A stretch of DNA of 21,950 bases from a virus. Within the stretch, counting starts at the first letter, position 1. The number at the start of each line of letters is the position of its first letter. Positions 2,329-4,272 of this stretch are shown in pieces. Location: positions 1-21,950 of IMG/VR virus record IMGVR_UViG_3300010885_013606; one strand, written 5' to 3'. The position numbers and the translations under genes were made by a program. Under the pieces are notes generated by a model. The model was not told the DNA's origin, did not search any database, and was given only the letters and a program-made list of their open reading frames with translations.

Positions 2329-2782
2329 TCTTTTACATCCTAAATTAAGGGTAGAAGCATTAGCTATATACTCTAAAATATGTCAGGAGTTATCAAAAGA
2401 TTCTTTCTGTAGATTTACCCATACATTAAGGACTTTTGAGGAGCAGAATGCTTTATATTCACAAGGCAGGAAAACAGATGGGCCTATAGTAACCAATGCT
2501 AAAGGTGGCAGTAGCTACCATAATTATGGCTTAGCTATTGATATAGTCCTAATTAAAAACAATGCTGCTATCTATGATACTAAAATAGACTTAGATGGGG
2601 ATGGTAAAAGTGATTGGATAGAGGTAGTTAATATCTTTAAGCAGCATGGATGGGAATGGGGTGGAGATTGGAAATTTTCAGATACTCCACATTTTCAGAA
2701 AACATTTGGGCATTCTATTAAGGCCCTATCAGACCTACATAGTAAAAAGAAAGTAGACAAAGATAATTATGTAATAATATGA
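2297..2782 (+). CDS. Endolysin: M15-family L-Ala-D-Glu / D-Ala-D-Ala type peptidase
   Basis: A 161-residue zinc peptidase expected to cut peptidoglycan stem peptides in the periplasm during lysis. The M15 signature is complete: an early Arg in HTLRTFEEQ (about 45), SSYHNYGLAID giving zinc ligands His75 and Asp82, and the C-terminal DTPHFQ with ligand His132 after WEWGGDW. A loop at about 98-106 reads DLDGDGKSD, like a calcium-binding loop; I recall similar inserts in other Bacteroidota M15 enzymes. There is no signal peptide, so it needs a holin for export. The gene overlaps small membrane protein genes on both sides, the last four bases being ATGA with the next start. Exact bond specificity cannot be read from sequence. 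Confidence 0.88.
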   Translation: MTDSKTIAKINLLHPKLRVEALAIYSKICQELSKDSFCRFTHTLRTFEEQNALYSQGRKTDGPIVTNAKGGSSYHNYGLAIDIVLIKNNAAIYDTKIDLDGDGKSDWIEVVNIFKQHGWEWGGDWKFSDTPHFQKTFGHSIKALSDLHSKKKVDKDNYVII

Positions 2783-3405
2783 AGATAAATTATATTACTC
2801 ATTGGCAAACTACCATTATTGGTATAGTTATTATATTAGCTTCTTTAGGTAGTGTATTTTTTGCTCAGTCTACCTGGACAGATGCTTCTATAGGGTTAGG
2901 TATTGGTATCTTATTAATATTTTCTCCTGACACTATTTTTAAGAAATTAAGTACATTACTAAAAGTGTTAGCATTATTTTGCTTAACATCATGTGTATCT
3001 GAAAAGAAATTAGCTAAAATATGTGCAGAAAAATACCCTATTAAGGATAGTATAGTCTATGTAGCAAGTACAGATACCTTATATGAGTATGTTAAGGGAG
3101 ATAGCATTAAGCTAGAGTATATAGTTAATAATGTTATTAAGTATAAGGATACTATATGCCCTCCTAAAAGAGTTAAAACTATCATTAAAAGCACTCAAAA
3201 GATAGTATATCAGGAAAATACTGCTAAAACACATATTTTACAGGTTAAATGTGATGATTTAATGACTAATACTAGAAAATTAGAAAATAATATAGCAGAT
3301 AAAGATATTAAAATAACTAACTTACAGAGATTTAAAAATTATACCATATCTTTGCTAATAGTTTTAGCAATGTACACAGGAATAATGTTATACTTAAAAA
3401 AATAA
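2779..3405 (+). CDS. Lysis protein: holin-like N-terminus joined to u-spanin-like lipoprotein
   Basis: A 208-residue protein overlapping the endolysin stop (ATGA). Residues 11-29 and 38-50 are two hydrophobic spans with a short loop, like a small class II holin. Residues 55-72 then form a typical lipoprotein signal: KK, a hydrophobic run, and lipobox LTSC with Cys72. The rest is a charged, probably periplasmic stretch, with a likely coiled coil at about 155-185 and a final membrane span at 187-205 ending LYLKK. Lipobox plus C-terminal span is the layout of a unimolecular spanin, which links outer and inner membranes. There is no ATG or TTG between the two parts; only a GTG at 2965, which would leave too short a signal. 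Topology is visible; function is inferred from topology and the endolysin neighbour. Confidence 0.65.
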   Translation: MKINYITHWQTTIIGIVIILASLGSVFFAQSTWTDASIGLGIGILLIFSPDTIFKKLSTLLKVLALFCLTSCVSEKKLAKICAEKYPIKDSIVYVASTDTLYEYVKGDSIKLEYIVNNVIKYKDTICPPKRVKTIIKSTQKIVYQENTAKTHILQVKCDDLMTNTRKLENNIADKDIKITNLQRFKNYTISLLIVLAMYTGIMLYLKK

Positions 3406-3408
3406 ACC

Positions 3409-4272
3409 ATGCAAATAAGCAAACCCTCTAAGTCAGTTACAGAAATTAAACTAAAAGGAGTTAATCAAAGTTTTTTATTATTATCAGATGTCCATTTTGA
3501 TAGTAAAAGTTGTGAAAGAAGGCTCCTAAAAGAAACATTAGATGAGGCATTAAAAAAGAAAACTATTGTATTATTCAATGGGGATTTTTTCGACATGATG
3601 CAAAGCAGAAATGATAGAAGAGGTACCAAAGGCAATCTAAGGAAAGAATATTTAGGGGATAACTATTTTGACCTGGTAATAGAAGATGCTGCAGAGTTTT
3701 TAAAACCTTATGCTAAAATTATTGCAGTTATGGCAGATGGGAACCATGAAACTGCTATCACTAAGAATGCAGAAACTAATCCCTTAGAAAGACTTTGCTA
3801 TATATTAAGGAAAGAGTATGGTAGTTTAGTTAATCATTGTGGGTACCAAAGTTGGGTAGTTATTAATATGGCAGATGGTACTGCTATTTATACCTATAAG
3901 ATTAAAATGCATCATGGGGCAGGTGGTAATGCCAGGGTTACTAAAGGAGTAATAGAGCATAATAGAATGAGTACCTATGTAGAAGGTGCAGACCTTATTT
4001 GGTTAGGCCATACACATACTCAGTATTGTATGCATTCTACTACTGAAAGGCTTATATATGGTAAGTCATGTTCTGTAGTATTAGAGAAAGTATACCATAT
4101 TCGCACAGGGTGTTGGAAGCAGGAATACAAAGAAGGGGGATGGTCAGTAGAAAAGGGATTCAGCCCCTCTGAGATTGGTGGTTATTGGTTAGATTTAAAC
4201 CTTAAAAAGTATAAAGATGATGATAACAAACAGAAATCTAATGTAGTAGTTAAAATATATCCAACTTATTAA
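3409..4272 (+). CDS. Calcineurin-like metallophosphoesterase
   Basis: A 287-residue protein with every core motif of the metallophosphoesterase fold in order: D27-x-H29 (SDVHF), GDFFD at 58-62, GNHE at 111-114, His168/169 (KMHHGAGG) and GHTH at 200-203. These bind two metal ions and hydrolyse phosphoester bonds; substrates in the family range from nucleotides to DNA. There is no signal peptide, so it should act in the cytoplasm. It starts 3 bases after the lysis gene and ends 3 bases before the next, so it is transcribed with the late block. That setting does not reveal the substrate; nucleotide turnover, DNA processing or counter-defence are all possible. Confidence 0.85.
   Translation: MQISKPSKSVTEIKLKGVNQSFLLLSDVHFDSKSCERRLLKETLDEALKKKTIVLFNGDFFDMMQSRNDRRGTKGNLRKEYLGDNYFDLVIEDAAEFLKPYAKIIAVMADGNHETAITKNAETNPLERLCYILRKEYGSLVNHCGYQSWVVINMADGTAIYTYKIKMHHGAGGNARVTKGVIEHNRMSTYVEGADLIWLGHTHTQYCMHSTTERLIYGKSCSVVLEKVYHIRTGCWKQEYKEGGWSVEKGFSPSEIGGYWLDLNLKKYKDDDNKQKSNVVVKIYPTY

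Follow-up and report, generated by a model that had tools for sequence, protein, structure and literature searches.

Holins, endolysins and spanins are regarded as distinct proteins, with three layers as their targets. The locus described here lies in a 21,950-base virus record (the whole stretch analysed, which we will call the window) and raises the question of whether two of these roles, those of holin and spanin, can be combined in a single gene. A reading made from the sequence only had proposed such a combination, a holin joined to a unimolecular spanin (u-spanin). The fusion itself is supported by split homologues, independent fused copies, an invariant cysteine and purifying selection, while the N-terminal half is a putative holin, with another membrane protein of the lysis cluster as its rival, and lipidation and cleavage at Cys72 are predicted steps.

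Organisation of the fused gene

The gene occupies positions 2779–3405 of the plus strand, as are all window features below, and is an open frame of 208 codons running from ATG to stop with no internal stop. Its ATG overlaps the stop codon of the preceding gene (ATGA), as it does in relatives. That gene (2297–2782) is an M15 endolysin, as the earlier reading had it, matching Peptidase_M15_4 (E=2.3e-18) and the endolysin family PHROG 2649 (E=1.5e-31), and its closest relatives are found in Bacteroidota and their phages. A phosphoesterase-like gene, recognisable by the motifs DVHFD, GDFFD, GNHE and GHTH, starts after the fused gene at 3409.

Hydropathy analysis reveals hydrophobic segments at about residues 13–29, 38–54, 57–73 and 190–206, the third of which ends in L69-T70-S71-C72 (2983–2994), matching the lipobox consensus [LVI][ASTVI][GAS]C (quoted in PMC6139136). 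The predicted succession of two N-terminal spans, an internal lipobox and a C-terminal span in one frame is thus borne out. The N half (residues 1–62; 2779–2964) is a two-span holin-like module with spans at about 9–28 and 33–52, followed by positive charges at residues 55–62. The internal lipoprotein signal segment (residues 57–72; 2947–2994) leads into the C half (residues 72–208; 2992–3402), a u-spanin-like mature lipoprotein closed by a membrane span at 190–206 (3346–3396; mean hydropathy 2.22), which is present likewise in the split forms and in all fused forms. The AlphaFold model of the protein is weak (mean pLDDT 68, pTM 0.26); it places helices at 9–28 and 33–48 in the N half, four strands at 92–143 and a long helix at 148–207 running into the C-terminal span. 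The periplasmic helical stretch expected earlier is therefore found in part, but the region is not purely helical.

When 4697 ORFs were scanned for a span followed by an internal lipobox and a C-terminal span (those of at least 100 aa being tested), only members of the fused family and one antisense frame were returned, so the layout exceeds what chance would produce.

The two halves as neighbouring genes

Homologues in which the two halves are separate genes, the search for which had been suggested as a check, do exist in the nearest relatives, the two genes adjoining each other in the very slot of the fused gene, between the M15 endolysin and the phosphoesterase-like gene. A 62-aa two-span protein sits there in loci L001–L006, L011 and L018, and about 67 nt after it starts a lipoprotein with a C-terminal span, 154 aa long (139 aa in L001), seen for example in L002, L004 and L018; the sequences of L006 and L011 end within or before the lipoprotein. 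The halves of the window protein are 40–50% identical to these split proteins, and its internal signal segment aligns with the N-terminal signal peptides of the lipoproteins. In the window the stop of the 62-aa gene, the lipoprotein start and a 24-codon ORF lying between them are missing, and the frame reads through.

This 24-codon ORF of the split loci (MKKWWKEFCYLYxKCQQHQFIGKI, variable at several positions; e.g. L001 5186–5260 and L004 5186–5260) overlaps both neighbouring genes by ATGA and does not occur in the fused loci; it could encode a tiny lysis peptide or serve as a device for coupling. The short lipoprotein frame of L001 (5257–5676; 139 versus 154 aa in close relatives) is interrupted inside the C-terminal span, possibly by a deletion or a sequence error.

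The two modules also occur apart. In L134 the lipoprotein still follows the endolysin, and an unrelated 68-aa two-span protein lies by the endolysin in place of this N half. L019 and L215 have only the two-span protein, near an Amidase_2-type enzyme, and lack an adjoining lipoprotein. Judging from these arrangements, the lysis modules are exchangeable. After the phosphoesterase gene of L019 (4292–4840) and L215 (6112–6651), both without the lipoprotein, lies a protein whose single N-terminal span is followed by a long remainder, a possible i-spanin or replacement.

Fused forms in distant phages

Fused proteins were found in four viral contigs of the same group as the window (L008, L009, L010 and L128), in one distant viral contig (L226) and in six Bacteroidota genomes (G099, G812, G911, G1105, G874 and G803, the last with a degenerate box), making 12 with the window. 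L226 turned up when viral contigs were scanned for a DNA pattern, the G099 prophage protein in a genome search with PHROG 5595, and the other five genome copies when the same profile was run on 380 genomes of one order. Common to all are two hydrophobic segments at the N-terminus, of which the second has weak hydropathy in some, then a third that ends in Cys, a periplasmic part and the C-terminal span. The PHROG 5595 profile (243 positions, 'unknown function') matches the window protein across the junction (residues 11–118, E=1.3e-5) and also most of the other fused proteins; the comparison covers sequences that match the profile, and the family has no assigned function. Further PHROG 5595 matches in G035, G606, G826, G852, G1041 and G1343 were not counted as fused, since they do not display the layout.

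Outside the group of the window the C halves are only 11–17% identical to that of the window, yet the lipobox Cys is aligned in 12/12 fused proteins, as also in the split lipoproteins, and the preceding residue is G, A or S in 11 of them, the exception being F in G803, which carries the poor lipobox MTFC. Loss of Cys72 or of the lipobox in homologues, which would have spoken against the fusion, was thus not seen. Within the group, L008–L010 (from three metagenomes) and L128 share the window junction ...L(I/L)KV...SC. Values of dN/dS between L008 and L010 (0.06 for the N half, 0.15 over the few sites of the junction, 0.19 for the periplasmic part and 0.06 for the C-terminal span) point to purifying selection on each of the two halves in L008–L010. 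Taken at the level of sequence, the join of a holin-like and a u-spanin-like module is a real gene fusion, recurring in several distant Bacteroidota phages. The alignment of the window with G099 is gap-free over the first 72 residues, which suggests that the fusion is old and that fission came later. Phylogenetic trees, built for the phosphoesterase, for the lipoprotein part and for the N half, are compatible with either one or several origins of fusion within the window's group (AU p=0.43 for the phosphoesterase tree).

The fused protein of L226 (9944–10810, minus strand) carries another lipobox, LASC256, close to its C-end, and the proline-rich tail after it recalls a small Rz1-like o-spanin; this is one case only.

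Linkage to wall-cutting enzymes

Nearly all fused genes lie just downstream of a peptidoglycan hydrolase, and these hydrolases belong to four unrelated families: M15 peptidase in the window group, Amidase_2 in L226 (by Pfam) and G812 (by sequence likeness), N-acetylmuramidase in G803 and GH108 in G911, G874 and G1105, where in G1105 a small lipoprotein gene intervenes. In G099 a DUF5675 protein is found two genes away. It is mainly this linkage to four unrelated wall-cutting families which makes a lysis role of the fused protein well supported. The fused genes of L226, G803, G812 and G099 adjoin a DUF2586-type gene (by Pfam in L226 and G803, by likeness in G812 and G099), probably a tail sheath gene, and this neighbour suggests that the window group and these four are different kinds of phage. 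L241, L242 and L244 (genomes G911, G1105 and G874) share an element composed of the GH108 enzyme, the fused gene and a methyltransferase-like protein of ~1,580–1,606 aa; the part of these loci that was read shows no recognisable tail or terminase gene.

Proposed mechanism and alternatives

The reading that we favour, with some caution, is a two-in-one lysis precursor, a holin-like hairpin and a u-spanin freed by a signal peptidase II cut at Cys72. Residues 1–62 would form a small two-span hairpin, N-in/C-in, acting as a putative holin or holin partner in the inner membrane, and residues 57–72 a third span doubling as lipoprotein signal peptide. Cys72 would be lipidated by the host and signal peptidase II would cut before it, leaving the N-terminal 71 residues in the inner membrane and freeing residues 72–208 as a u-spanin, with the lipid anchor in the outer membrane and the C-terminal span in the inner one. 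With the wall opened by the M15 endolysin, this part would be able to fuse the membranes. We infer cleavage because without it both ends of the protein would be held in the inner membrane. A C half that works as a u-spanin has to come off this membrane at its N-end, and lipidation of Cys72 with a signal peptidase II cut is then the most likely step. Several features count against the precursor: a short hydrophobic run before C72, the presence of K62, periplasmic cysteines C82 and C127 conserved in this family, the MTFC of G803 and a rival holin candidate.

That rival is a 67-aa membrane protein (2125–2328) encoded upstream of the endolysin and overlapping its start, conserved in L001–L006, L019, L128, L134 and L215. 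Profile searches gave no useful family match for it, and the N half has no match to a holin family in Pfam, PHROG or NCBIfam. The 67-aa protein could be the holin and the N half an accessory membrane module, either an antiholin or an anchor coordinating the spanin with the holin, the C half still being a u-spanin. The 67-aa gene is kept in every related locus examined, even in L134 which is without this N half, and for the inner-membrane spanin of phiCbK the extra N-terminal spans have been taken as perhaps linking it to the holin (PMC3556154). However, the N half occurs alone as a small two-span gene in the endolysin clusters of L019 and L215, and its replacement in L134 is by an unrelated two-span gene, both as expected of a holin. 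We hold this accessory role to be a minority possibility.

Somewhat less likely still, in our opinion, is that one gene gives two products, the full-length protein and a lipoprotein whose translation begins inside the frame, in span 2 or beyond it, which would make an internal cut unnecessary. In-frame ATG codons able to open a signal peptide are present in 8/11 of the other fused genes (L128, L008–L010, L226, G911, G1105 and G874), so internal initiation is possible for those, but there is no conservation of their positions, and S, A or L also occur in the Met column that closes span 2. G812, G803 and G099 lack such an ATG, and G812 has no candidate start with K/R. The window frame contains neither ATG nor TTG between codon 2 and C72, and its sole GTG, codon 63, would leave 9 residues before the Cys and no positive charge. 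One polypeptide is thus the simplest reading there. A conserved start near codon 53, a further possibility that could have undone the fusion, was not seen among the fused homologues; the window would need an ATT start at this codon, and conservation of Ile53 extends to the split N-half genes, where it cannot begin a lipoprotein.

It is quite improbable that the third span is an uncleaved anchor that keeps the entire protein in the inner membrane, where it has another lysis role. The hydrophobic stretch between K62 and C72 has 9 residues, one below the split homologues, and K62 separates it from the remainder of the span. G099 and L226 match a strict PS51257-like pattern, but the window, L128 and L008–L010 miss it, and G803 has no good lipobox. 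Against such an anchor stand the invariant Cys with G/A/S before it in so diverged a set, and the free lipoprotein of the split relatives. Lastly, an assembly or sequencing error joining two genes, to which the 67-nt spacer missing from the window might point, can practically be dismissed, since the same junction comes from other metagenomes (L008, L009, L010 and L128) and whole genomes contain the same layout, independent copies that already contradict it.

Returning to the precursor, its stricter form, a phage lysis polyprotein in which the host's signal peptidase II, acting on an internal lipobox, divides one translation product into holin and u-spanin, seems to us about evenly balanced between true and false.

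Comparison with known systems

Searches for relatives gave little: tblastn against 50,697 phage records found no match for the window protein, the split halves, L009 or L226, and one weak partial match (E=0.2) for the G099 protein; a search of genome contigs with the window protein found none; Foldseek against BFVD gave low TM-scores only; and no relative was found in the PDB. Sub-threshold Pfam matches to SPATA24 and SPW were set aside.

By layout, the C half resembles u-spanins, lipoproteins with a C-terminal span which link the outer and inner membranes (PMC6139136) and, according to one survey, the only spanins used by Bacteroidetes phages (PMC12596118). With the prototype, phage T1 gp11, it has in common a lipobox, a periplasmic domain with predicted beta strands, a C-terminal span and a place in the lysis cluster (PMC6139136). 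The fused protein differs by the two extra spans ahead of the signal peptide, which make the lipobox internal, and by the conserved periplasmic cysteines, such a Cys being found in 0/58 catalogued u-spanins (PMC6139136). Since the signal, N-terminal in the split homologues, has 62 residues and two spans ahead of it in the full protein, we class the latter as a fusion containing a u-spanin-like half and not as a plain u-spanin. The N half resembles class II holins, a class defined by two spans, N-in/C-in (PMC3556154), in being a predicted small two-span hairpin beside an endolysin, but it has no match to a named holin family and is fused to a lipoprotein.

The nearest precedent for the fused gene is the phiCbK-like inner-membrane spanin (PMC3556154), a spanin subunit with additional spans proposed to coordinate with the holin. 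There, however, the system is two-component and the extra spans are on the i-spanin and not ahead of a lipobox, and the passages of PMC3556154 on this spanin describe no separate-gene homologues. In the open-licence literature we found neither a description of a holin-spanin fusion nor an earlier case of an internal site being cut by signal peptidase II, and the fused gene would offer a clear test of such internal processing.

If a conserved single gene does serve both holin and spanin roles, it shows that the two can be made, and perhaps timed, together. A lysis polyprotein, if real, would fix the holin to u-spanin ratio at one to one and tie the disruption of the outer membrane to hole formation in the inner membrane. 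A lysis role would also give a function to the unannotated PHROG 5595 in phages of Bacteroidota, whose lysis is little studied.
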